Shown: positions 1,078 to 19,100 of the stretch, one piece after another | Layout: every line of letters starts with the position of its first letter | Numbering within the stretch: the first letter of the stretch is position 1 | From: a virus | IMG/VR virus record: IMGVR_UViG_3300045612_000222 | Location: 1-20,204 of that record | Reading direction: 5' to 3' (one strand) | Length of the DNA stretch: 20,204 nt | The notes under the pieces: generated by a model | The model's database searches: none | The model's input: the letters and a program-made list of their open reading frames with translations, nothing else | What the model was told of the DNA's origin: nothing | Program-made: the position numbers and the translations under genes

Positions 1078-3096
1078 ATGGCAAGAAAAAGAAGAAACAA
1101 TGATAATCAACCTATTGGAGTTGGTTTGACAACAAAGCAATCAAAAAGAAGAAAACCAATTGGATCAGAATTGCTTTTAGATATTGAACCACTTACAGAA
1201 AATCAAAAAAAATTATTTGAGTCTTATGATTCTGGTAAACATTTAGTTGCTCACGGAGTTGCTGGTTCTGGTAAAACATTTTTATGCCTCTTCAAGGCAC
1301 TTCAAGATGTATTGTGTGAATATACTCCATATGAAAAGATTTACATCGTCAGATCTCTTGTACCCACTCGTGAGATAGGATTTTTACCAGGACCACAACC
1401 ACTTGATGCAAAAATACTTACTCCGAGTGGATGGACTACGATGGGTCAAATAAAAGTTGGAGATTATGTGATTGCTAAAAATGGAAAACCAACAAAAGTT
1501 CTTGGCGTTTATTCAAAAGGAAAAAAATTGATTTATAAAATTACGACAACCGAAAATACATCTACAGAATGTTGTGAAGATCATTTATGGATGACTAAAA
1601 CATTTGAAGATAAAAAACGACAAAGAACTGGTAATGTAAAATCTACTAGACAAATTATTAATACTCTTTATGATAAAAATGGAAAAATAAATCACTATAT
1701 TCCGAGAAATGAACCAATTCAATTTCCTAAAAATAATCTTCCAATATCTCCATATGTTTTAGGTGTTATTTTGGGTGATGGTTCAATATCTAATTCTATT
1801 GCTATAGCAAATACAGATATTGAATTAATCGAAAAAGTTGAAAATGAAGTAAATAAAATTGGGTGTTATTTAAAAACTTCTTCATCTTCTAATAATATTC
1901 AATATACAATCAGTTCAAAAGATTTGAAGTGCAATAAACCCGCAAGAAGAGTTCTACTTAAAAATATCAATAATGATAAAAAAATTGAATATTATTCAAT
2001 TGGAGATGCCATAAAAAATCTCAACTTATCCAAAAATGTAATCACAAAAAGATGTAAAGAAAGTAAAATAATTAATGAATATGAGTATAAATTTTTACCA
2101 CCATTAAATAGATGGCAAAATCCTATTAAAAATTATTTATATGAACTTGGATTGAGTGGTAAAAAAGCATATGATAAGTTTATTCCAGATTTATACAAAT
2201 ATTCTTGTGTAGATGATAGAATAGAACTTCTTCGTGGACTCATGGATACCGATGGAACAATCAAAGATATATGTGGTGGTTGTTGTTCTTATACAACTAT
2301 TTCAAAACAATTAGCAGATGATGTGGTAGAGTTGGTTCAATCTTTGGGTGGAAGAGCAACTTATAGGAGTAGAAATAGAATTAATAGAGAAAAGAAAAAT
2401 GTTTTAATTGATAAGAATGGAAAAAAAAGATTGATAATAACAAAACATATATCATATGAATTAAATATTTCTCTACCAAAAGAAATAAATCCTTTTTATA
2501 TTTCAAGAAAAGCAGATAGATTTAAACCCAAATATATGCATTACGTTGGTATAAAATCTATAGAACCAGTATGCGAAAAGGAAGTTCAGTGTATCTCAGT
2601 TGAAGATCAAGAACATCTTTATATTACTGATCAATATATTGTGACTCATAATAGTCACGAAGATAAAGCATCTCTTTATCAAATTCCTTATAAGAATATG
2701 GTAAAATACATGTTTCAGATGCCCTCTGATGCTGATTTTGAAATGCTTTATGGAAATCTCAAGGCACAAGAAACGATTAGTTTCTGGAGCACTTCTTTTA
2801 TTCGTGGTACAACTCTTGATAATTGTATTATTATTGTAGATGAATTAGAAAATTTAAATTTTCATGAATTGGACTCCATCATTACTCGTGTAGGTGAAAA
2901 TACTAAAATTCTTTTTTGTGGTGACATTTCTCAAAGTGATTTACTTCGTCAAAATGAAAAAAATGGTATTGTAGATTTTATGAGAATTATTCGTCAAATG
3001 CCATCATTTGATATTATTGAATTTCAAATCGCAGACATAATTCGTAGTGGACTAATTAAGGAATACATTCTTACAAAAATGGAACTTGGTTTATGA
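1078..3096 (+). CDS. phoH: PhoH-like P-loop ATPase interrupted by an intein
   Basis: The 672-residue precursor is PhoH split by an in-frame intein (residues 106-525). After splicing the product would be 252 residues, the usual size for phage PhoH. The Walker A motif GVAGSGKT is at residues 60-67 in the N-extein; Walker B (IIIVDELENL, D588-E589) is in the C-extein. The insertion is inside the conserved GFLPG...K motif: joining G105 to S526 restores GFLPGSHEDK, with the lysine five residues after the glycine as in bacterial PhoH (GFLPGDLQQK). PhoH is a predicted ATPase/helicase-like protein, sometimes linked to phosphate stress in hosts; its phage role is unresolved. Upstream gene abuts; the next gene overlaps by ATGA. 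Confidence 0.93.
   Translation: MARKRRNNDNQPIGVGLTTKQSKRRKPIGSELLLDIEPLTENQKKLFESYDSGKHLVAHGVAGSGKTFLCLFKALQDVLCEYTPYEKIYIVRSLVPTREIGFLPGPQPLDAKILTPSGWTTMGQIKVGDYVIAKNGKPTKVLGVYSKGKKLIYKITTTENTSTECCEDHLWMTKTFEDKKRQRTGNVKSTRQIINTLYDKNGKINHYIPRNEPIQFPKNNLPISPYVLGVILGDGSISNSIAIANTDIELIEKVENEVNKIGCYLKTSSSSNNIQYTISSKDLKCNKPARRVLLKNINNDKKIEYYSIGDAIKNLNLSKNVITKRCKESKIINEYEYKFLPPLNRWQNPIKNYLYELGLSGKKAYDKFIPDLYKYSCVDDRIELLRGLMDTDGTIKDICGGCCSYTTISKQLADDVVELVQSLGGRATYRSRNRINREKKNVLIDKNGKKRLIITKHISYELNISLPKEINPFYISRKADRFKPKYMHYVGIKSIEPVCEKEVQCISVEDQEHLYITDQYIVTHNSHEDKASLYQIPYKNMVKYMFQMPSDADFEMLYGNLKAQETISFWSTSFIRGTTLDNCIIIVDELENLNFHELDSIITRVGENTKILFCGDISQSDLLRQNEKNGIVDFMRIIRQMPSFDIIEFQIADIIRSGLIKEYILTKMELGL
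1393..2652 (+). mobile_element. Class 3 intein with LAGLIDADG homing endonuclease inside PhoH
   Basis: A 420-residue intein runs from P106 to N525 of the precursor. The start block is PQPLDAKILTPSGW, and it ends QYIVTHN followed by +1 serine (S526). Residue 1 is proline rather than Cys/Ser/Ala. The three residues that define class 3 inteins are present: W171 in block B (EDHLW, with block-B His169), C505 in block F (VQCISV) and T523 in block G (VTHN). In class 3 the block F cysteine is the known first nucleophile. Two LAGLIDADG motifs keep their acidic residues: VLGVILGDG (227-235) and LLRGLMDTDG (384-393), so homing activity is plausible. The boundary is fixed by the conserved PhoH motif it interrupts. 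Confidence 0.92.
1942..2097 (+). other. NUMOD1-like DNA-binding segment embedded in the intein endonuclease
   Basis: Residues 289-340 of the PhoH precursor, between the two LAGLIDADG motifs, fit the NUMOD1 pattern: a short beta part (RRVLLKNINNDKKIEYY), then SIGDAIKNLNLSKNVITKRC like the NUMOD1 helix-turn-helix SIxxAAxxLxISxxTIxxxC, ending EYEYKFLPP. NUMOD1 is a modular DNA-binding repeat typically attached to GIY-YIG or HNH homing endonucleases. Here it would extend target recognition. The match is by eye, without a profile search. Confidence 0.6.
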
Positions 3097-5028: not shown

Positions 5029-5937
5029 ATGAGCTTTTCTGATTTAAAAAAGCAATCAAAAATGGGTTCTTTGACCGAAAAACTCATTAAACAAGTTGAA
5101 AAATTAAATGAAACTGGTTCAAAGGATGATGATCGTTTTTGGAAACCAGCAATGGATAAGGGTGGAACTGGTTCTGCTGTGGTTCGTTTTCTTCCTGCTT
5201 CAGAAGGATGTGAACTTCCTTGGGCGCAAGTGTGGTCTCATGCCTTTCAGGGTCCTGGTGGTTGGTTGATAGATAATTGTTTAACTACAAACAAAGATCA
5301 GTGTCCCGTATGTGAAGCAAATCGTGAGTTATGGAATACTGGAAGTAAAGATAATCAAAATATTGTTCGTGATCGTAAGCGTAAACTATCTTATTATTCA
5401 AACATTTATATAGTTAAAGATCCCGCTGCTCCTCAAAATGAGGGTAAAGTTTTTTTGTATAAATTTGGTAAAAAAGTTTTTGATAAAATTATGGCTGCAA
5501 TGCAACCAGAATTTGATGATGAAAAACCAATTAATCCTTTTGATTTTTGGGAAGGTGCTAATTTTAAACTTAAATTACGTAAAGTAGAAGGTTATTGGAA
5601 CTATGATAAGTCAGAATTCTCTGAATCTGGACCTCTTCTGGATGATGATGATGAATTAGAAAGAATTTATAAATCACTTTATGATTTAAATGAATTCACT
5701 GGTCCAAAAAACTTTAAATCTTATGATGATTTGAAGAAAAGATTGGATCAAGTTCTTGGAACAAAATCCACATTAAAGCGTCAAGACCCAGAAACAATTG
5801 ATGAAGAAGAAGAAATGATATCAACAACAAGAGATGACTCTACATTTACTTCGTCTTCAAAAACAAAAGTTGAAGAAGATGATGAAGATGAAAACGATGA
5901 TGCTTTAAGTTATTTTTCAAGATTAGCAAATTCTTAA
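5029..5937 (+). CDS. gp32: gp32 single-stranded DNA-binding protein
   Basis: A 302-residue T4-type ssDNA-binding protein that coats replication and recombination intermediates and organises gp59, the polymerase and recombination proteins. The zinc-binding set of T4 gp32 (His64, Cys77, Cys87, Cys90) has its counterpart in H71, C84, C92 and C95 (SHAF...DNC...QCPVC). A basic/aromatic core with FWKP and AVVRFLP follows the N-terminal cooperativity region. The C-terminus is strongly acidic (EEDDEDENDD) before a final SYFSRLANS, as in the protein-interaction tail of this family. It has its own promoter and terminator, so it is a separately controlled unit. Confidence 0.95.
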   Translation: MSFSDLKKQSKMGSLTEKLIKQVEKLNETGSKDDDRFWKPAMDKGGTGSAVVRFLPASEGCELPWAQVWSHAFQGPGGWLIDNCLTTNKDQCPVCEANRELWNTGSKDNQNIVRDRKRKLSYYSNIYIVKDPAAPQNEGKVFLYKFGKKVFDKIMAAMQPEFDDEKPINPFDFWEGANFKLKLRKVEGYWNYDKSEFSESGPLLDDDDELERIYKSLYDLNEFTGPKNFKSYDDLKKRLDQVLGTKSTLKRQDPETIDEEEEMISTTRDDSTFTSSSKTKVEEDDEDENDDALSYFSRLANS

Positions 5938-8172: not shown

Positions 8173-8688
8173 TTATGGTGCCGATAAATTATCTGGGTAA
8201 TCCCAAACTTTGGATTTAAATACTGGTTGTCCTCTTTTATCTACAAATCTTTCGGTTGGAAGTAGAGATACTTCTCTCCATTCATTTTTAGGAACTTTGA
8301 AAAAATCACTACTTACACCCGAAAACAAATAATTATGTAATGTTTTTCTTGGTGCATTTACATTTCCTGCTTTATTTATGTAAGAATTTGCAATTCCTCC
8401 ACGATATTGTGGATTTAGGTAATGAAGATTGGAACCAAGAAATTTTCCTTCTCTTGGATTTACATCAATAATATATGCTAGTGGTTGCCTATCCCAAAAT
8501 TGATATTTTTGTGGATATTTTGCAGAATACATAAAAAATACTAAATCGCCAGGAATGATAAAATAAGTATCAATTTCACTTATATCATCGTCTTTATATT
8601 TTGAAAGTTCATTCATTAATGCATTTGTATACCAACTGGTGGAACGAAACTTTTTTCCTGCTTCTTTGATTATTTTATCGGCAATCAT
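8173..8688 (-). CDS. Conserved T4-like phage protein of unknown function (FLGxNLHYL motif)
   Basis: A 171-residue soluble protein. It has a PGDLVFFMYSAK strand pair, then FWDRQPLAYIIDVNPREGKFLG and the motif SNLHYLNPQYRGGI. I recall related proteins (D-PL...F-GxNLHYLPPxxR) in T4-like phages, unnamed and close to tail or head-completion genes, but no function. It overlaps gp4 by ATGA and abuts gp48, so a virion or assembly role is likely by context only. Confidence 0.7.
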   Translation of the reverse strand: MIADKIIKEAGKKFRSTSWYTNALMNELSKYKDDDISEIDTYFIIPGDLVFFMYSAKYPQKYQFWDRQPLAYIIDVNPREGKFLGSNLHYLNPQYRGGIANSYINKAGNVNAPRKTLHNYLFSGVSSDFFKVPKNEWREVSLLPTERFVDKRGQPVFKSKVWDYPDNLSAP

Positions 8689-9143
8689 ATTTGAATTCCC
8701 AAATCACGTTCGGTAAAAATACGGAATTCCCAATTTCTATCTGTACAATATTCACGACATGCTTTCCATTTTGCTTGATTAATTGCCCAGTTTTTGACGG
8801 CATAAGCCCAAGATTTTGTTCTTTTTTCTGGACTTTTTTGTGGTTCTTTTAAATCTTTTGCTGGTTTGATTTCTATAACTACTATTCTTATATTATTATC
8901 TTTATCTTTGTATTTGAGTTTCATATCTGGAAAATATCTGTGAACTTTTTTGTCTATTGGTGATACATAAGGAATCCAAAATTCTTCACTTTGATATGAA
9001 ATTACATTTTCTGTTAAATCACAATATTCAAACATTTTGAGTTCATAAGAACTACGATATATAATATTTGTTGGGTCTCCATTATATTTTTCCGGATGTT
9101 TTGGTTTAAATTTTCCTTGTTTGTAGTTCTTATTTATAGACAT
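8685..9143 (-). CDS. gp4: gp4 head completion protein (PD-(D/E)XK fold)
   Basis: A 152-residue match to T4 gp4 (150 residues), needed to finish heads before tail joining. Shared blocks include KYNGDPTNIIYRSSYELKMF, comparable to T4 KYRGDPKKITYRSNWEKFFF; RYFPDMKL, matching T4 RYFMDIWM; VVIEIKPAK, matching T4 FIEIKPKK; and KWKACREYC...EFRIFTE near the end. The E...D...ExK arrangement (Glu34, Asp73, Glu91, Lys93) is that of a TnsA-like restriction-nuclease fold, so nuclease activity is possible. It is the first gene of the leftward block, with a candidate late promoter 23 bases before its ATG. Confidence 0.9.
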   Translation of the reverse strand: MSINKNYKQGKFKPKHPEKYNGDPTNIIYRSSYELKMFEYCDLTENVISYQSEEFWIPYVSPIDKKVHRYFPDMKLKYKDKDNNIRIVVIEIKPAKDLKEPQKSPEKRTKSWAYAVKNWAINQAKWKACREYCTDRNWEFRIFTERDLGIQI

Positions 9144-9907: not shown

Positions 9908-10636
9908 ATGACTTTGCCTAAAATTTCCACACCTCAATATGAGTTAGAATTACCTTCAACTGGAAAAACAATTAAGTATCGTCCATTTCTTGTAAAGGAG
10001 GAAAAAATATTACTTCTTGCTCTTGAAAGTAAAGATACTAAACAAATTACCATAGCAATTAAGTCTGTACTTAAAGAATGTATTCTAAGTAGGGGTATAA
10101 AAGTAGAAGAACTTCCCACATTTGATATTGAATACATTTTTCTAAATATTCGTGGAAAATCAGTTGGTGAAAGTGTTGATTTAATTGTAACTTGTAGTGA
10201 TGATGGTGTAACTGACGTTCCTGTGAAAATTTATATTGATGAAATAAAAGTACAAAAAAATGAAAATCATAAATCTGATATAGATTTGGGTGAAGGTTTA
10301 ACTTTAAGAATGAAATATCCATCATTAAATGAATTCATTAAATCTAATTTTGATTTTAGTGAAGAAAAAACAATTTCAAATATTGATGAATCTTTTGAAA
10401 TTATTGCATCTTGTATAGATATAGTATTCAATCAAGAGGATAGTTGGGCAGCAGCAGATTGTACAAAAAAAGAATTAAAAGAATGGATTGAAACGATGAA
10501 TACAAATCAATTTAAAATGATTGAAAATTTCTTTGAGACGATGCCTAAACTTTCTCATACTATTAAAGTTAAAAATCCAAAAACAGAAGTAGAAAATGAA
10601 GTGACGTTGGAGGGTTTAACCAGTTTTTTCGGTTAA
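9908..10636 (+). CDS. gp26: gp26-like baseplate hub / tail assembly protein
   Basis: A 242-residue member of the T4 baseplate gp26 family (Pfam T4_baseplate as I recall it). The N-terminus ISTPQYELELPSTGK then IKYRPFLVKEEKILL and the segment LPTFDIEYIFLNIRGKSVGE are the recognisable blocks; the middle has a LRMKYPSLNEF motif and the end is acidic with helices. In T4 gp26 helps hub assembly and is not a major virion part. Its last codons contain a slippery sequence that would connect it to the downstream -1 frame, giving a longer form of 302 residues. Confidence 0.8.
   Translation: MTLPKISTPQYELELPSTGKTIKYRPFLVKEEKILLLALESKDTKQITIAIKSVLKECILSRGIKVEELPTFDIEYIFLNIRGKSVGESVDLIVTCSDDGVTDVPVKIYIDEIKVQKNENHKSDIDLGEGLTLRMKYPSLNEFIKSNFDFSEEKTISNIDESFEIIASCIDIVFNQEDSWAAADCTKKELKEWIETMNTNQFKMIENFFETMPKLSHTIKVKNPKTEVENEVTLEGLTSFFG
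10624..10630 (+). promoter_or_regulatory. Candidate programmed -1 frameshift site T_TTT_TTC
   Basis: The gp26 codons AGT TTT TTC GGT TAA place a canonical X_XXY_YYZ heptamer (T_TTT_TTC) two codons before the stop, in the correct phase. After a -1 slip reading continues CGG TTA ATT ATG into the next ORF with no stop until 10813. The -1 frame is open from 10600. Both tRNAs can re-pair (UUU to UUU; UUC to UUU). The exact arrangement resembles the lambda G/GT tail chaperone site. No strong downstream pseudoknot was found by eye. Confidence 0.6.
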
Positions 10637-10638
10637 TT

Positions 10639-10815
10639 ATGGCTCATATGGATTTGGAGTCATATTTTAAACTTAATTTCTCATTAATGCAGTATCATAA
10701 ATATTCACTAACAGAAATAGAAAATATGATGCCTTGGGAAAGAGACATTTATGTTACATTATTACAACAACATATAGAAGAAGAAAACCTGAAACAACAA
10801 TCAAATGGCAATTAG
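10639..10815 (+). CDS. Small ORF, likely frameshift extension of gp26
   Basis: A 58-codon ORF in the -1 frame relative to gp26. The product has YFKLNFSLMQYHKYSLTEIE and a MMPWERDIYVTLLQQHIEEE block. I recall this Y-H-K-x-S-L-x-E-I-E-x-M-P-x-E-R-D-I-Y pattern in small proteins next to gp26 in T4-like phages, and the P-W-E-R-x-x-x element recalls the T part of tail assembly chaperones. The ATG at 10639 has no Shine-Dalgarno near it, so it is made either by -1 frameshifting or by reinitiation two bases after the gp26 stop. It overlaps the next gene by 11 bases. Confidence 0.75.
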   Translation: MAHMDLESYFKLNFSLMQYHKYSLTEIENMMPWERDIYVTLLQQHIEEENLKQQSNGN

Positions 10816-12661
10816 TTCTGCTATCAGACCAGAAGTTATTACTAATAAAAGAAATTTAAATCCTATAAAGGCACAAAATTTTATTTCTGGTAAAACTTCT
10901 TCTGATGTGAGAACATTTGGATCAGCAGCGAATAAAATAGTTAAATTTCAAAGAGCAGGTGTACAACCATCATCAGTAGATATTAATAGTATTATAAAAA
11001 CATTATCAACGGGAATAGTTAATAATTATAATAATCAAGCACAAACAATCAATAATTCAGTTACAAATATAATTAATAAAACTATTGGTAATTTATCAAA
11101 AGATTATCAAGATAAAATTAAAAAAGTAGATGAGGCAAAACCAACTGGTGTTCTTCAAAAAGTTTTGGGTCTTTATAAAGATGTAATTAATTTTATACAG
11201 TTTTTTGGAAGAAGAAAATTTGTAGATGGGTTGCGAGATAATCTAAAAGCACTTCAAACCTCTTTTAGTGAAAGTTTTGAAGTTGCAAAATTAATTCGTC
11301 AGGTTATAATTAAAATTGTAAAACAATTATCTAATTTACCAAAAGCTTCACCATCAGGTGGTGGTGGTATCAATCTTGATGTTGATGTTCCTGGAAATAA
11401 ATTAAAAGGTAGTAATACACCTCTTAATAGAAGAATGAGAGGAGGAATGGGTAAGGGTAAGATGCTTGCTCTTGGTGCCGGTGCTCTTGGATTAGGTGTT
11501 GCTGGTGCTGCTGCAACAAATGCTCTTTCCGATAGTGATGCAATACAACCAAAAAGTTCTACACCAGAAATACCAGAAAACATAGTTGATAGTTTAAGTG
11601 TTATTATTAATAGATTTGCATCTGCGATTGATAGATTAATTAAAGGTAGTTCTGATAAAAAATCATCTGGTTCTTCTGCTAGTTCATCTAGAGGTGCTTC
11701 TAGTGCTTCACCTGGTGCTTCACCTGGTGCTCCGGGAGACCCAGGTGAAACACCAAGTTCTCCAGTAGTCAGTTCTGCGCCTGTAGATGAAAAACTTGCT
11801 GCATATACTTCTGTTTTGGAAGGAACTGCAGGTCAAAATGCTGCAGATGCAATGCAAGTCATGTTGAATCGTGCTGTACAAAATCATGGAAAATTTGGTG
11901 GACTTGGAGAACAAGTTATGGCTGAAGGACAATTTACTCCAATGGCAGCAGCAATTTATGGGACTTCTGGAGACCCTGCTGCAAATAGAGCATATGGTCA
12001 TATTGCTCCAATGCTAGGCAAAACTCCAGCAGAAAGGAAAGCAAAGTTAAGACAGATTGTAGAAACAGAAGGAATGAAAGGATTAGATAAACTATACAAT
12101 AAAAAATTTGCAGGAGAGGCCAATAAAGTGCTTGCAGATTTTAAATCTGGGGGACCATTATCACGAAATGCAGCGCAAGGAGTAAAGGGAAGAGTATACT
12201 TTAAGGGCCAAACTGATCTCCACAATATGAAACCAGGGGATTTTTATAGATACACTGGTGGAAATTACTTTCATACCCTGAATCCAGAAGAAATTAAAGG
12301 AAAAATTGGGACATTACAACAAATTAATCCTGCAACAGTAACACCACAAACTACACAAGCAGTAGCACAACAACGACAACAACAAATTGCACAAGTTTCA
12401 CAAGCAGTAGCACAACAACGACAACAACAAATTGCACAAGTTTCACAACCAGTACAAACACAACCTCAAGTAAATTATATTCCTATTGATATGAGTGGTG
12501 GAGGAAAACAGACACAACAATCATCATCATCTGGTGAAGGTATAAGTGCCCCACCACCAACATCACAGAGTGGGCCTACAGTTCCATTTTTGTCTTCATC
12601 AAATTCAGATAATTTTTTAGTTCTTTATTCAAGAATGATTTATAATTTGGTGGATGGGTGA
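10805..12661 (+). CDS. Tail protein with SleB-like cell wall hydrolase domain
   Basis: A 618-residue multi-part protein. Residues 1-180 are mostly helical with a polar N/Q-rich stretch. Residues 219-241 form a glycine/alanine-rich hydrophobic segment (membrane-like). Residues 281-326 are a Ser/Pro/Gly collagen-like linker. Residues 328-495 resemble the SleB/CwlJ cell wall hydrolase fold: VLEGTAGQNAADAM with E339 in the position of the catalytic glutamate, MLNRA (N355, R356), GQF (Q376-F377), and a late His in NYFH (H490). Then a Q-rich repeat and a terminal helix. It sits between the gp26 module and a second hydrolase protein, so it probably travels in the tail and opens peptidoglycan. The position after a chaperone also fits a tape-measure-like role. 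Confidence 0.75.
   Translation: MAISSAIRPEVITNKRNLNPIKAQNFISGKTSSDVRTFGSAANKIVKFQRAGVQPSSVDINSIIKTLSTGIVNNYNNQAQTINNSVTNIINKTIGNLSKDYQDKIKKVDEAKPTGVLQKVLGLYKDVINFIQFFGRRKFVDGLRDNLKALQTSFSESFEVAKLIRQVIIKIVKQLSNLPKASPSGGGGINLDVDVPGNKLKGSNTPLNRRMRGGMGKGKMLALGAGALGLGVAGAAATNALSDSDAIQPKSSTPEIPENIVDSLSVIINRFASAIDRLIKGSSDKKSSGSSASSSRGASSASPGASPGAPGDPGETPSSPVVSSAPVDEKLAAYTSVLEGTAGQNAADAMQVMLNRAVQNHGKFGGLGEQVMAEGQFTPMAAAIYGTSGDPAANRAYGHIAPMLGKTPAERKAKLRQIVETEGMKGLDKLYNKKFAGEANKVLADFKSGGPLSRNAAQGVKGRVYFKGQTDLHNMKPGDFYRYTGGNYFHTLNPEEIKGKIGTLQQINPATVTPQTTQAVAQQRQQQIAQVSQAVAQQRQQQIAQVSQPVQTQPQVNYIPIDMSGGGKQTQQSSSSGEGISAPPPTSQSGPTVPFLSSSNSDNFLVLYSRMIYNLVDG
11714..11754. repeat. GC-rich inverted repeat in the linker of the SleB-like gene
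   Basis: A 14-base arm at 11714-11727 (GGTGCTTCACCTGG) pairs with 11741-11754 (CCAGGTGAAACACC) with one mismatch around a 13-base loop. The arms overlap codons for a Ser/Pro/Gly linker and part of the short direct repeat TTCACCTGGTGC. It is the most GC-rich potential hairpin in an AT-rich region. There is no T-run, so it is not an intrinsic terminator. Confidence 0.65.
12356..12445 (+). repeat. Perfect 45-base tandem duplication (two copies)
   Basis: Two identical, adjacent 45-base units (12356-12400 and 12401-12445) encode QAVAQQRQQQIAQVS twice. A degenerate third start (QPVQTQPQV) follows. The copies do not differ even at silent positions, so the duplication is recent or maintained by slippage. 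It lies after the hydrolase domain in a glutamine-rich linker, where length change is harmless. Confidence 0.92.
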
Positions 12662-14766
12662 TGGCTAAAGTTTTTTCTTCTCCTCTTGTTTCTGCATCAA
12701 ATAATATTATTCTTTTTTCGAGAGGAGCAAAACAACTATCAAGAGTTCAAAGGCAGTTAGTTCAGTTTGATGCATTTATAAAAACTAAAACTATTGAAAT
12801 TGAAAAAGATAAACTACCAAGTAAGAAAAAAATCAAAGAACTTGCAAATTTAAATGTTGCATCAACTTTTGGTTCTCCCAGTGGTTTGTTGAGTGGATTG
12901 GCTAGTGGTGCTCTTGATATTGCTGGTTTTCTTGGGAATATGTTTCCAGCAAGAGGAAAAACAGGAAAACCAGGAAGATTACCAGCAAGAATAAAAGCAC
13001 CAAAACCAACAGTCAGAGGTTCAAACTTAAAACTTGGTGGATTGAGAGCAGTTGGAGTTGTAAATGCTTTATTTGCTGGACTTGATTTTGCGACTGGATT
13101 GCAAGAAGGCGAAAGTGTAGGAAAATCAGCAACTGGTGCTGTTGGTTCTCTTGCTGGAAGTTTACTTGGTGGTGCAATCGGACAAGCACTTATTCCAATT
13201 CCCGGAGTTGGATTTGTACTTGGAAGTATGGCTGGTGGATTTTTGGGTGGTTATACTGCAGATAGAGTATATGAAGGTGGAAGTTATATAAAGAAAAAAT
13301 TAAATGAAAGATTGAAGAAACAAGAAGCAGCACAGGCACAGAAGGTGGCATCTAATAATAATTTTGATGATATAGTGAATAAATTTAGTGAGTCTGTAGG
13401 AAAGTTTGAAAACTTTGTATATAATTCATTTGCAAATGTAATCAATGCTGCAGCATCTGCTTCTGGTTCTGCTCAAGAAGGTGCTCCAATGGAATATGGT
13501 CCACCAGAACCAGAACTTCAACCAGGAAAAGATACTGGACAAGAACTGCAAGATGTAGAAGCAGAAGGTGGAAAAAAACCTAGCCGATCAATTATAACTT
13601 CTCGTTTTGGTCCACGTAATGGTAGGCAACATTACGGAACAGATTATGGAGAAAATGCTGGAACTCCCGTAAGTGTAATTCAACCAGGAAATGTTCAATT
13701 TGCTGGATATACTAGTGGGGGTGGAAATACTGTACATATAGATCATCCAGATGGTTCTCAGACTAGATATTTGCACTTTCAAAAAACACCAAATGTAAAA
13801 ACTGGACAACAAATAGAACCAGGTACAGTTATTGGATATGTCGGAAATACTGGTAGATCTAGGGGACCACATTTACATTTTGAATATGCTCCACCGGGTC
13901 AAGGATCTATAGATTCAGCTCCTTATGCAGACAAGTATTTTAGATTCGGTGGAAATGTTAAAGTAAAACCAAAGGCAGGAGTTTCGAGAGCAGGTTCTAA
14001 CCCTTTTGTTTTAGAATTACACGCAGACCCAAATGCAAAAGGACAAAAGACAGGATTAATCCCAAGCAATATCAGTCCAGATACTGCTGTCTCACAAGCA
14101 CTTGTGTCTAGTTTTGGAACTTATGGTAAAAATTATAGAGGAGGGTTGGGTGTTACAAATAGAGGTGGAAATATTCTAGAAACAGATATGGCAGTGGGCG
14201 CTAAAAAAAATGCAGAAGAAATAGTTAAAGCAATGTTGAAAGACCCTAAACGTGCATATCACATTTTTGCAGGACACGCTGATGTAACAAAAGGTGAAAC
14301 TGGTGCTCCTGGAGAAAAGGAATATAATTTGAGAACTGCTGAATTGGTTGAAAAATTAGCAACAGCACGGGGACTAAATTTAATTTATCATAGATCTATT
14401 AATGCAAATAATCCAGGTGATCCAAATTCAAATTTTTCTAGAATTGAAGCAATAATGAAAAATGCTTCAAAATCACAAGCAACACAACCAACAACAACAC
14501 CACAAGTTCAATCGATACCTAAACCACTGGTAACACAAAAAAAATTAGAGCAATATCCAACATACAATCAGCAACAATCAAGTGTAACTATAATGCCAAT
14601 AATGATGGGAGGTAATCAAGGTGGTGGTGGACAACAACAAAAACCTGTTTTTATTCCAGTTGGTGGTGGTGGAGGTGGAACTGTTGTTCTTCCTGGACCA
14701 AGTGAAGGACAGATAGTAAATAGTTTAATAAAATCTATGTTACTTACAAATCTTTCAGGTACATAA
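12661..14766 (+). CDS. Tail protein with M23 peptidase and permuted amidase-like domain
   Basis: A 701-residue protein starting at ATG 12661, which overlaps the previous TGA by one base (TGATG); an in-frame GTG sits just before it. Residues 70-205 are Gly/Ala-rich and hydrophobic, including a glycine-zipper-like stretch (GSLAGSLLGGAIGQALIP). Residues 310-409 are an M23 (LytM-type) metallopeptidase: H324 and D328 (HYGTD), H372 (YLHF), H404 and H406 (HLHF), as in LytM. Residues 446-602 resemble an N-acetylmuramoyl-L-alanine amidase (Amidase_3) with its halves in swapped order (see findings). A Q-rich and Gly-rich tail (SVTIMPIMMGG) ends the protein, similar to the neighbour. Probably a tail-borne peptidoglycan hydrolase or tape-measure-like protein. 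Confidence 0.8.
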   Translation: MAKVFSSPLVSASNNIILFSRGAKQLSRVQRQLVQFDAFIKTKTIEIEKDKLPSKKKIKELANLNVASTFGSPSGLLSGLASGALDIAGFLGNMFPARGKTGKPGRLPARIKAPKPTVRGSNLKLGGLRAVGVVNALFAGLDFATGLQEGESVGKSATGAVGSLAGSLLGGAIGQALIPIPGVGFVLGSMAGGFLGGYTADRVYEGGSYIKKKLNERLKKQEAAQAQKVASNNNFDDIVNKFSESVGKFENFVYNSFANVINAAASASGSAQEGAPMEYGPPEPELQPGKDTGQELQDVEAEGGKKPSRSIITSRFGPRNGRQHYGTDYGENAGTPVSVIQPGNVQFAGYTSGGGNTVHIDHPDGSQTRYLHFQKTPNVKTGQQIEPGTVIGYVGNTGRSRGPHLHFEYAPPGQGSIDSAPYADKYFRFGGNVKVKPKAGVSRAGSNPFVLELHADPNAKGQKTGLIPSNISPDTAVSQALVSSFGTYGKNYRGGLGVTNRGGNILETDMAVGAKKNAEEIVKAMLKDPKRAYHIFAGHADVTKGETGAPGEKEYNLRTAELVEKLATARGLNLIYHRSINANNPGDPNSNFSRIEAIMKNASKSQATQPTTTPQVQSIPKPLVTQKKLEQYPTYNQQQSSVTIMPIMMGGNQGGGGQQQKPVFIPVGGGGGGTVVLPGPSEGQIVNSLIKSMLLTNLSGT

Positions 14767-16082
14767 TGTCAATCGCAGTCGCCGCATTTAAACCAAATTA
14801 TTTTGGTATACAATCTTTGAATGGTAAAAATACTGTTGATGTAACTAATTCTTTATTATTTTTTGATTATTTTGAAGATTTATTATCTCCTTGTGTAACA
14901 GCAATCGCTCAAATTATAAACTCATCTTCATTATTTAATATTCTTCCAATTCGTGGTGGGGAGAAGGTTTCGATTAGTATAAATACTGCTTCTGGTGAAT
15001 TCTTACTTGATGGTGATACTGCATTATATGTGAATAAAGTAAGTGGATTAGATGCACAAACTCCAAGTGAAACTTTTACATTACATATGGTTTCTCGTGA
15101 AGCACTTACAAATGAAACTTCAAGATGTGAAAGAAAATATAATGAAACTACAATCGATAATCACGTAAATAGCATACTTAAAGATGTTTTAAAAACAAAA
15201 AAAATTAATAGTAAAAATATAGAAACAACATCTAATAGTTATTCTTTTATTGGAAATAATAAAAAACCTTTTCATATTTTAACTTGGTTGGGACCGAAAT
15301 CTGTATCTGCAGTATCTGGTGGCGGAGGAATTTCGGGAGATGGTGAATATGCTTCCGCAAAAGGTACGGCAGGATTTTTGTTTTATGAAAATAGAGATGG
15401 ATTTAATTTTAGAAGTATTGACAGTTTAGTTTCAAATACACAAGTACAAAAACAAAGTGCAAATAAAGAACAAATACCAACTTATTTTTATACCCAAATT
15501 ATAGAAAATAGTGTCGAAAATAATGAATTTAAAATATTAAATTATGAATTTGAAAAAAATATAGATTTGATGAAATCATTAAGAGTTGGAATGTATGTAA
15601 ATAAAAGTTATTTTTATGATTTATATTCAAATACTTTGGATATTTATACTTATAAATTAAAAGAAGAAATTGGCAACAAATTAGGTAATAAAGATATTAG
15701 TCTTTCTGATGAATTTGGTGATAGTATTAGTCGTATTATGGTTCGTGTTTCTGATAGAGGCGTATTGAATAATGATGGATCTATTTCTGCAAAATTAAGA
15801 AGTGGTGCTGATATGGCTAAATCTTTTTCAAGATATAATATTTTGTTTACTCAGGCACTAAATATGATTGTACCTTGTAATATTACATTAAAAGTTGGAA
15901 GTATTATTCGCGCAGTTTTTCCGAGAATAGATAGAACTGATAATAAAAGCGCCGATGATGAACAAAGTGGAAATTATTTAATTAAAAATTTGAGGCACCA
16001 TTTTGAGGGTGGACAAATGATTACGAGCCTGAGATTAATTCGTGATAGTTATGGTTTTTATGGAAAAAATAATATTTTTTAA
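14766..16082 (+). CDS. gp27: gp27-like baseplate hub protein
   Basis: A 438-residue hub protein. The start FKPNYFGIQSLNGK followed by VDVTNSLLFFDYFEDLLSP, then VSREALTNETSR, and the mid-protein GTAGFLFYENRDGFNFRSID are blocks I recognise from gp27-type hubs of marine T4-like phages. In T4 three gp27 molecules form the channel at the baseplate centre and hold gp5. The ATG shares one base with the preceding TAA (TAATG). It is followed by a 5-base gap, a small protein, and the gp5-like gene, as expected for hub partners. Confidence 0.75.
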   Translation: MSIAVAAFKPNYFGIQSLNGKNTVDVTNSLLFFDYFEDLLSPCVTAIAQIINSSSLFNILPIRGGEKVSISINTASGEFLLDGDTALYVNKVSGLDAQTPSETFTLHMVSREALTNETSRCERKYNETTIDNHVNSILKDVLKTKKINSKNIETTSNSYSFIGNNKKPFHILTWLGPKSVSAVSGGGGISGDGEYASAKGTAGFLFYENRDGFNFRSIDSLVSNTQVQKQSANKEQIPTYFYTQIIENSVENNEFKILNYEFEKNIDLMKSLRVGMYVNKSYFYDLYSNTLDIYTYKLKEEIGNKLGNKDISLSDEFGDSISRIMVRVSDRGVLNNDGSISAKLRSGADMAKSFSRYNILFTQALNMIVPCNITLKVGSIIRAVFPRIDRTDNKSADDEQSGNYLIKNLRHHFEGGQMITSLRLIRDSYGFYGKNNIF

Positions 16083-16087
16083 AAAAT

Positions 16088-16294
16088 ATGAAAATTCAAG
16101 AAATTATTTATAATATATGTGAAGAACTAAATTCTTCTCCAAACGAACAAAGAAGAAGGTATCTTGAAGAATATCTTCAGGATATTTTATCCTATCAAAA
16201 GAACAATTCAAATCAAGTTATGGTTCCAACTTCACTGGAATTATATTACAACGAACATCCAGAAGCACTAGAGTGTAGAATATACGATGATTGA
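16088..16294 (+). CDS. Small conserved phage protein between gp27 and gp5 (function unknown)
   Basis: A 68-residue helical protein rich in charged residues, with an RRRYLEEYLQDILSYQKNN helix and a C-terminal VPTSLELYYNEHPEALECRIYDD. I recall the LELYC-x-x-NP-x-A-x-EC-x-x-YE/D ending from small cyanophage proteins, with no known role. Coding is supported by the 8-base overlap with the gp5-like gene and by the absence of any gap on either side. Confidence 0.7.
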   Translation: MKIQEIIYNICEELNSSPNEQRRRYLEEYLQDILSYQKNNSNQVMVPTSLELYYNEHPEALECRIYDD

Positions 16295-19100
16295 AGAAGC
16301 TTTATTAAAATCTAATTATATTGGAAAAGATGGATTTATTTGGTGGATAGGTCAAGTTGCACATTCATCTGTTTGGGCAGAAAAATCTGAGATTTCTTTA
16401 GAAGATACTGGTGAAGTATGGGGATCGAGATGTAAGGTAAGAATTATTGGTTATCATTCTTTTGATGGTAATATTCTCCCCGATAATGATTTACCTTGGG
16501 CACAAATAATGTTGGATCCTTCTTTTGGAAGTGCTCAAGGAGGTATTGGAGGAACGATACATCTGAGAGGTGGCGAAACTTGTTTTGGATTTTTCTTAGA
16601 TGGAGATGATGCACAACAACCAGTAATTGTTGGATTGCTTTATCGTAGCAGTGGAACTAAAAATTTACAAACAGAAGGTGTTATAGAAAAAGAAAAAAGT
16701 TCAAGATTTAAACCTTTTAGTGGACATCCTGGAAATTTAGTTAAACCATCACAAAGAGATAGTAGAACTTCAAAGGTTTTTACTACTCAACTAGAAACTC
16801 CTCCTATTTCTCAATCGGACATAACAAAAATTGCCTTTAACTCAAACTTTGGTTTTTCGAGTTCATTCACTACAAATGTTTCAGCAATACCACAATATGG
16901 TGATAAAATTGCAGGAGTTAAATTGGGTATTCCTGCTGCATCAACTCTTGCAGTAGAAAAAAAAGCAGATATTACTTTGGTTAAGCCAAATGGATGTCAA
17001 AATAATTTAATCGGTCAAATATCACAAATACTGCAAAATTTTAAAGCAGTTACGAATGGACTTGATAGATATTTAAATTCTTATATTGATCCAATATTAA
17101 ATGAAATTGTAAATATTAAAAATTTAATTAAAAAAACAGCAGGACAAGTTCTTGGAATTGTAAAATTAATTATTAATAATTTAAGAGCAACTATTTTTAA
17201 GTGTATTACAAAATTATTTACTAAGTTGGTTGGATTGATAGTTCCAATTCCTCAACAGGTATTTATTTTAGAGGCAATGAAAAAAATATTAGATATAATT
17301 TTTTGCATTCTTGAAAAACTTCCTGGAAATCTTCTTAAATTTATTGAAGATATGCTTAATGAATTAGTTTCTCCAATAAATGCACCCGTCTGTGCAATCG
17401 ATCAACTTACTGCTGGTATTCTTTCTCAATTAATGAGTTTGATTGAAAATGCACTTGAGAGTGTTATGTCTGGAATTAGTTGGTTGACTGGTGGTATTTC
17501 TTCGATTAGTGGAATTTTAAATGAAGCAAGTTCACTAGCATCACAAATTTTAAGTTTTCTTGAATGTACTGGACTTGCCTGTAAAAAACCAAGTGTTTGG
17601 GCTTCTAAATTTGGACCAAATGAAAAAGATGTTGATAACTGGCAAGATATGGTATCTAATGTGAATGTGCTAAATGCATTGAGTAAAGATTTAGGATCAA
17701 TTGAAAATGCAATTAAGGAAACTCCAATTTATGGTGGAATAAATAGAAGATTTAATTCATTATTTGATACTTGTAATCAAAAAGTATCAAATCCAACAAA
17801 TCAAGACGATATAATTCCACTTCCTCCTGGAGTTAAATATCCAAATTGTATTCCTCCAATCGTAAGAATTGTTGGAGATGGAACTGGTGCAAGTGCAATT
17901 CCAGTTGTTGGACAAAATGGATCTATTTTTTCAATAGAAATGACTAATACTGGGAATGGATATACAATAGAACCAACAGTATCAATTGTAGATAATAGTG
18001 GTTATGGTAATGGAGCTACGGCACAGGCAATTGTCGAAAACGGAAAAGTTACATCAATTTATGTAATTACTTATGGTTCTGGTTATTGTCCTGGAAATTA
18101 TACTGGAATTGGGACAACTAGACCTGGAATTGGAACAACCAATACCAATAGTCCATCTATTTTATTGAAATTATTTTCCACTAAAAATGATATTTTAGAA
18201 GGAGATAATTTTGATGTTGTCTTGAATACTGAAAATGTAAAAGATGGTGCAACATTTGATTATACTATTTCTGGTGTTGGAATAAATCAAATCGATAAAG
18301 ATTTAAAGGGAACCTTTACAATAAATAATAAAAATTCTGTTTTACCAATTAAAACAAAAAATAATTTTATAAATGATAAAGAATTATTTACATTAAAATT
18401 AGATAATTATAGTAATTTTGTAGATGTTTTAATTCGTAAAAAACAAATACCAGTTGAAGACACTCTATATACTTTAACTTCCTCTCGTAATTATATTACT
18501 GCTGGTGAAGCATTTACTATTATTTTATCCACAAAAAACATACCAGACAATACTTTGGTTTCATATTCAATCTCTGAAATTGATAATAGGTTAATAAATA
18601 ATTTACCCTTAATTGAATCCTTTAAAATTATACAAGGAAAATCACAATTATTAGTAAAAACAAGAGATGATATAATTACAGATAATGTAGTATTTAAATT
18701 ATCATTGGATAATAAGCAAGCATCAATTTCAGTATTAATTAAGGCAAAAATAAAAGCACCATCACCTCCTCCTCCTGGAATTCGAACTGATGTAACTGGG
18801 TGTATTGAAAAAATTGTAGTATTATCTCCTGGATATGGTTATACGACTGGTGATAGAATTACTGACGGTAAAAATTTATATACTCCAATTGTTTCTCCAA
18901 ATAGTGGTGCAATTGTAAATGTATTATCATTAAATAATCCAATTTGTGGATTTGATACACCACCAAATCTTATTATAAATACAAACACTGGTATTGGTGC
19001 GGAAGTTATTCCACTTATGAAGTATTATCCTTCTTATGAAACACTAAACCAACAAAAAATATCAATAGTAGGAATCAAAACAGTGATAGATTGTGTATGA
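16287..19100 (+). CDS. gp5: gp5-like hub protein with OB-fold, helical core and adhesin-like repeats
   Basis: A 937-residue protein. Residues 1-125 match the gp5 N-terminal OB-fold: WWIGQVAHSS..., CKVRIIGYH, LPWAQIMLDPSF, GGIGGTIHLRGG, GFFLDGDDAQQPVIVGLL, comparable to T4 gp5 WFVGVVE... VRVRVVGLH... LPWMSVIQP... SGIGGSV... YGHFLD. No lysozyme catalytic region follows. Residues 240-430 are long amphipathic helices. Residues 525-600 form a beta domain with a GNGYTIEPTVSIVDNSGYG repeat unit, with a second weaker copy at residues 838-912. Residues 625-717 and 725-820 are two Calx-beta/SASxxSVNEG-type Ig-like repeats. A proline run (SPPPPG) separates the last part. In T4 gp5 with gp27 forms the needle-bearing hub. 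Confidence 0.8.
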   Translation: MIEEALLKSNYIGKDGFIWWIGQVAHSSVWAEKSEISLEDTGEVWGSRCKVRIIGYHSFDGNILPDNDLPWAQIMLDPSFGSAQGGIGGTIHLRGGETCFGFFLDGDDAQQPVIVGLLYRSSGTKNLQTEGVIEKEKSSRFKPFSGHPGNLVKPSQRDSRTSKVFTTQLETPPISQSDITKIAFNSNFGFSSSFTTNVSAIPQYGDKIAGVKLGIPAASTLAVEKKADITLVKPNGCQNNLIGQISQILQNFKAVTNGLDRYLNSYIDPILNEIVNIKNLIKKTAGQVLGIVKLIINNLRATIFKCITKLFTKLVGLIVPIPQQVFILEAMKKILDIIFCILEKLPGNLLKFIEDMLNELVSPINAPVCAIDQLTAGILSQLMSLIENALESVMSGISWLTGGISSISGILNEASSLASQILSFLECTGLACKKPSVWASKFGPNEKDVDNWQDMVSNVNVLNALSKDLGSIENAIKETPIYGGINRRFNSLFDTCNQKVSNPTNQDDIIPLPPGVKYPNCIPPIVRIVGDGTGASAIPVVGQNGSIFSIEMTNTGNGYTIEPTVSIVDNSGYGNGATAQAIVENGKVTSIYVITYGSGYCPGNYTGIGTTRPGIGTTNTNSPSILLKLFSTKNDILEGDNFDVVLNTENVKDGATFDYTISGVGINQIDKDLKGTFTINNKNSVLPIKTKNNFINDKELFTLKLDNYSNFVDVLIRKKQIPVEDTLYTLTSSRNYITAGEAFTIILSTKNIPDNTLVSYSISEIDNRLINNLPLIESFKIIQGKSQLLVKTRDDIITDNVVFKLSLDNKQASISVLIKAKIKAPSPPPPGIRTDVTGCIEKIVVLSPGYGYTTGDRITDGKNLYTPIVSPNSGAIVNVLSLNNPICGFDTPPNLIINTNTGIGAEVIPLMKYYPSYETLNQQKISIVGIKTVIDCV

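Follow-up and report, generated by a model that had tools for sequence, protein, structure and literature searches.

The window analysed here (the whole stretch of DNA, 20,204 nucleotides) is a 20.2-kb fragment of the virus record IMGVR_UViG_3300045612_000222, with the gene content of a T4-like cyanophage: ThyX, PhoH with an intein, a gp32-like protein, a gp53-like wedge, tail tube cap, tail tube, baseplate hub and a gp5-like hub lysozyme. In its tail and baseplate region we examined a gene encoding a predicted lysin, which lies between the baseplate hub region and a tail protein followed by the gp5-like gene, and which carries an M23 domain and then an amidase-like domain, as do the M23-amidase tail lysins of S-H9-1-type cyanophages. 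The features of the locus are as follows:

9908-10636, upstream of the lysin gene: baseplate hub region (phrog_150)
12661-14766, plus strand: lysin gene of the tail/baseplate locus, an open reading frame of 701 aa from the ATG (702 aa from an in-frame GTG at 12658)
13627-13890, plus strand: M23 endopeptidase domain (Pfam PF01551, E 5e-26, residues 324-411)
about 13999-14469, plus strand: circularly permuted Amidase_3-like domain, delimited by an HMM of unpermuted homologues, hhalign and the element order of AlphaFold (AF2) models
14766-16082, directly after the lysin gene: tail protein (phrog_350)
16287-19100, after the phrog_350 tail protein: gp5-like hub/lysozyme

Residue numbers count from the ATG at 12661; counting from the GTG adds one. 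The M23 assignment is clear (91.2 bits, against a cut-off of 28.7). Immediately upstream of the lysin gene, a 618-aa protein (10805-12661, plus strand) had no Pfam or PHROGs match; its stretch VLEGTAGQNAADAMQVMLNRA...EGQFTPMAAAIYG presumably resembles wall hydrolases of the SleB/Hydrolase_2 type, and this protein is a candidate, from its sequence, for a third lytic domain that the locus may carry.

Elsewhere in the window, the PhoH-like protein (1078-3096, plus strand) is split by an intein that contains a homing endonuclease of the LAGLIDADG type. Judged against PhoH proteins in general, the insert would start with proline (PQPLDAKIL), which is unusual as a first residue. Many phage helicases and terminases contain distant inteins. 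The tail region also contains a TnsA-like nuclease (8685-9143, minus strand; Pfam E 5e-23), as it does in RB11-B; in relatives, this position is taken by a gene with the annotation head completion or head closure protein.

A preliminary description of this DNA had proposed that the region after the M23 domain is an Amidase_3 domain whose two halves are swapped around one breakpoint. The motifs on which it relied proved to be in frame where it had placed them, with H454, E507, H539 and E552 at these numbers when counted from the ATG. The domain is laid out as follows, all on the plus strand:

13999-14190: half that comes first in the sequence but is normally C-terminal, ELHAD...RGGLGVTNRGG.ILETDM, with H454 and E507 (canonical HMM positions 77-140, 31.7 bits, E 4e-7)
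14191-14256: joint of the original ends, where a predicted C-terminal helix, GAKKNAEEIVKAML, leads via KDPKRA to the strand that is normally N-terminal (AF2 helix 88-99, then strand 106-111 of the modelled stretch)
14257-14469: half that comes second but is normally N-terminal, HIFAGHADV...GAPGEKEYN...YHRS...PNSNFSRIEAIM, with H539 and E552 (canonical HMM positions 2-51, 23 bits, E 2e-4; Pfam Amidase_3 profile positions 3-51, E 0.009)
14020-14022: H454, corresponding to the second zinc His (motif SIHAD/EIHMD), invariant
14179-14181: E507, corresponding to the catalytic Glu (motif LVETAF/LIELGN), invariant and in register with the Glu of ILVETAF in E. coli AmiC
14275-14277: H539, corresponding to the first zinc His (motif DPGHGG/VPGHAA), invariant
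14314-14316: E552, corresponding to the zinc Glu (motif EKDV/GAPGEKE), invariant

Unpermuted homologues of the domain were found in MaMV-DC (gp95), S-CREM2, S-B43, RB11-B, S-H9-1, S-MbCM6, S-MS29 and many IMG/VR contigs, which encode, in the canonical order, the pattern GH...E...(strand and helix)...EIHxDA...RGGL.xTNRG.sliELGN or a diverged form of it. At the S-B43 locus (L025; MN018232.1 162818-165334) the annotated product is a tail fibre-like protein; as it is encoded on the strand opposite the unpermuted-amidase frame, we set this annotation aside. The amidase frame there seems truncated, reading SLIEFLSTGVEI and then a stop.

We built a canonical HMM (model length 146) from 20 unpermuted cyanophage-type domains only, and searched it with Z set to 50,000. 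In its native order the window domain gave two significant matches, in which the second part of the model (77-140) preceded the first (2-51), whereas the same domain rotated by computation gave a single match spanning model positions 2-140 of 146 (63.5 bits, E 6e-17). The maximum among 1,789 scored shuffles was 7.8 bits. Profile-profile comparison by hhalign likewise rose from a score of 57 in the native order, covering one half only, to 103 over the full length after rotation. Halves compared with the wrong halves gave Z values of at most 2.6, with no signal worth naming. The proposed swap of Amidase_3-like halves around one breakpoint, in a protein that also carries an M23 endopeptidase ahead of them, is therefore supported by these sequence profiles as well as by the models described below.

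The preliminary description had also stated that all four key residues are present, and had made their conservation among homologues a test of the idea. Indeed, H454, E507, H539 and E552 are invariant across four divergent unpermuted and two permuted rows, and also in all eight permuted rows aligned. At the sequence level, the three zinc ligands of Amidase_3 (His, Glu and His) and its catalytic Glu are thus all found in their motifs, in the order IH, VE, GH, E rather than the GH, E, IH, VE of that family.

The Pfam Amidase_3 profile (PF01520) detects the domain weakly: 16.5 bits (E 0.009) in the native order, matching only its C-terminal half, and 20.2 bits (E 0.0007) after rotation, short of the curated cut-off of 27 bits. 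The unpermuted relatives behave similarly, with weak matches in four of 16, the best at E 0.0037 and below the cut-off. A search of PDB sequences found no relatives for either the rotated domain or the unpermuted alignment, and a search of NCBIfam with the rotated domain gave no match. According to Foldseek, an unpermuted relative modelled with AlphaFold (pLDDT 84, pTM 0.84) has the Amidase_3 fold: its six best matches in the PDB were all Amidase_3 enzymes, with Nostoc AmiC2 first (prob 1.00), and its neighbours with E below 0.001 were amidases without exception. A profile of rotated and unpermuted members aligned to E. coli AmiA/B/C placed both His and both Glu in register, at a probability that is low by itself.

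The window domain was modelled with the canonical halves supplied as separate rows, so that no pairing of the halves was provided by the alignment. The resulting model (pLDDT 74, pTM 0.72, with low confidence at the ends and at 154-158) has the element order E(IH) E H E(LE) H E(GH) H E H, and that of the unpermuted relative is E(GH) H E H E(IH) E H E(LE) H; the strands and helices correspond, and one order is a circular shift of the other. A sequential Foldseek search of the window model against the PDB returned no significant match, which is expected for a permutant from an order-dependent method but is not positive evidence for one. Against BFVD, the best match was the unpermuted S-H9-1 protein (A0A873WGP8; E 1.8e-3, prob 0.98); the search recognised no relative with the permuted order.

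We found the permuted order on 21 IMG/VR contigs, all of one clade (77-100% identical) and including a contig of 247 kb; our searches found no permuted form outside this clade, no permuted copy among 50,697 records of isolated phages, and no relatives in the bacterial genome contigs searched. Three of the four longer contigs of the clade contain two psbA/psbD-type genes each. In a tree, the permuted rows form one group (98/96), placed beside S-CREM2 with modest support and on long branches. The dN/dS ratio is well below 1 in most comparisons, and about 0.5 for the normally N-terminal half between the window and L002; the joint is the most variable part of the domain, with 68% amino acid identity between the same two. 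One of the 21 copies (L020, on the contig shared with L077 and L113) has a frameshift inside the domain near position 5264, which is either natural decay or a sequencing error.

These observations bear differently on the explanations that can be offered. A chance resemblance of motifs, or an artefact of assembly, might be suspected from the Pfam match alone, which is marginal. We consider this explanation vanishingly improbable: the rotated domain reaches E 6e-17 against the unpermuted homologues, far above the shuffles, and an accident of assembly is ruled out because 21 contigs, among them one of 247 kb, share the arrangement. Together with the rise in the hhalign score from 57 to 103, these results refute it. 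A more substantial alternative is that the permuted domain belongs to the fold but has changed in activity, for example to another peptidase specificity or to peptidoglycan binding, such that it is no longer an L-alanine amidase. The sequence is indeed far from characterised Amidase_3 enzymes, with permuted and unpermuted members alike below the Pfam cut-off. This explanation nevertheless appears unlikely, given the zinc ligands and catalytic Glu that align with those of E. coli AmiC and the exclusively amidase neighbours (E below 0.001) of the unpermuted model.

It may also be that the two halves do not close into one site per chain, either because they are swapped between neighbouring baseplate protomers or because the domain is a non-catalytic structural remnant. 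Baseplate hub proteins are generally oligomeric, the confidence of the window model is moderate, and a frameshifted copy exists, all of which would fit such a scenario. We regard it as quite unlikely, however, since the model obtained from unpaired halves is a compact single domain (pTM 0.72), the link joining the original ends is short, and the four catalytic residues are kept in every one of the eight permuted rows aligned.

The permutation is thus supported by the unpermuted homologues, the native and rotated profiles, the conservation of residues, the order of elements in the AlphaFold models and the Foldseek results of the unpermuted relative. The swapped order of the sequence is established, along with the kept residues, the matching succession of elements and the genomic setting. 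On the basis of sequence and models, we consider it probable (roughly 0.83) that the gene encodes a virion-associated peptidoglycan hydrolase of a T4-like cyanophage with two catalytic domains, an M23 metallo-endopeptidase and a naturally permuted, Amidase_3-like zinc N-acetylmuramoyl-L-alanine amidase. In such a protein, the original N and C termini would be joined via the former C-terminal helix and the short KDPKRA link, the new termini would open in the loop ahead of the strand with the second zinc His, and the permuted chain would fold back to the same three-dimensional amidase. H539, E552 and H454 would then bind a single zinc, with E507 as the catalytic residue. The M23 domain would cut the stem peptide and the permuted amidase the bond between peptide and glycan, and the phage may cut both bonds while penetrating the cyanobacterial wall at entry.

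How the permutation arose can be addressed more tentatively. No tandem or 1.5-copy duplication intermediates were found, and four contigs of the permuted clade show only two half-matches in one gene. The two halves have different nearest relatives: the normally N-terminal half is closest to S-CREM2 (Z about 15-16), and the normally C-terminal half to domains of the Microcystis-phage and S-B43 type (Z 10-14, as compared to 1.1-1.4 with S-CREM2). This difference hints that halves from two amidases were joined. Among unpermuted domains, those of MaMV-DC and of the S-B43 type (L028, L039) have clearly homologous second halves (Z 24) and first halves that are barely so (Z about 1), which suggests, from sequence comparison, that half-domains were exchanged, or that rates are very unequal, here as well. 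Since the halves clearly evolve at different rates in this family, a two-parent origin is a lead and not a result. The fullest reading, in which no natural permutant of an Amidase_3-type zinc amidase precedes this one and it was made by joining halves of two different cyanophage amidase lineages, not by duplicating one amidase, seems to us doubtful as a whole. As S-H9-1 has an unpermuted amidase at the same position, the permutation would have arisen within an established M23-amidase tail-lysin locus, or the permuted domain would have replaced the domain there.

As far as we have searched, the open-access literature contains no earlier description of a permuted Amidase_3, and hence no precedent for a circular rearrangement occurring naturally in this well-known type of zinc amidase. 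Natural circular permutants that keep their active site are known among wall- or polysaccharide-active enzymes of other folds, unrelated to that of Amidase_3, including the permuted NlpC/P60-papain groups (PMC6403190) and the CE4 deacetylase PgaB (PMC5855634). The Amidase_3 (PF01520) enzymes, such as AmiC2 of Nostoc (5EMI), AmiA/B/C of E. coli and the CD27L endolysin, share the H...E...H...E pattern and the fold of the unpermuted relatives; the window domain differs from them in the opposite order of its halves, in scoring below the Pfam cut-off, and in lacking a regulatory helix like that of AmiA/B/C. Order-dependent tools such as Pfam and Foldseek, as this case shows, can overlook wall-lytic domains of phage tails, and the permuted domain would offer an unusual scaffold for enzyme engineering.

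The baseplate protein of the Microcystis phages MaMV-DC and LMM01 (phrog_30576), which carries a baseplate annotation, is closely similar in its second half (25 of 55 positions identical), but it is unpermuted and its M23 domain lies in the next gene. The combination of M23 and amidase is in itself not unusual, since normal-order versions occur in S-H9-1 and in several marine and freshwater contigs. In the M23 protein of Synechococcus phage S-H9-1 (QPB08112.1; BFVD A0A873WGP8) and in the freshwater and marine relatives L078-L082, an M23 domain is followed by an amidase with the same four residues as in the window protein, and the amidase halves are in the normal order. The S-H9-1 gene occupies the same position as that in the window, upstream of a tail protein and a gp5-like hub. 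A permuted enzyme and its unpermuted counterpart at the same gene position in related organisms provide a useful test case for domain rearrangement, in which S-H9-1 and the permuted clade can be compared directly.
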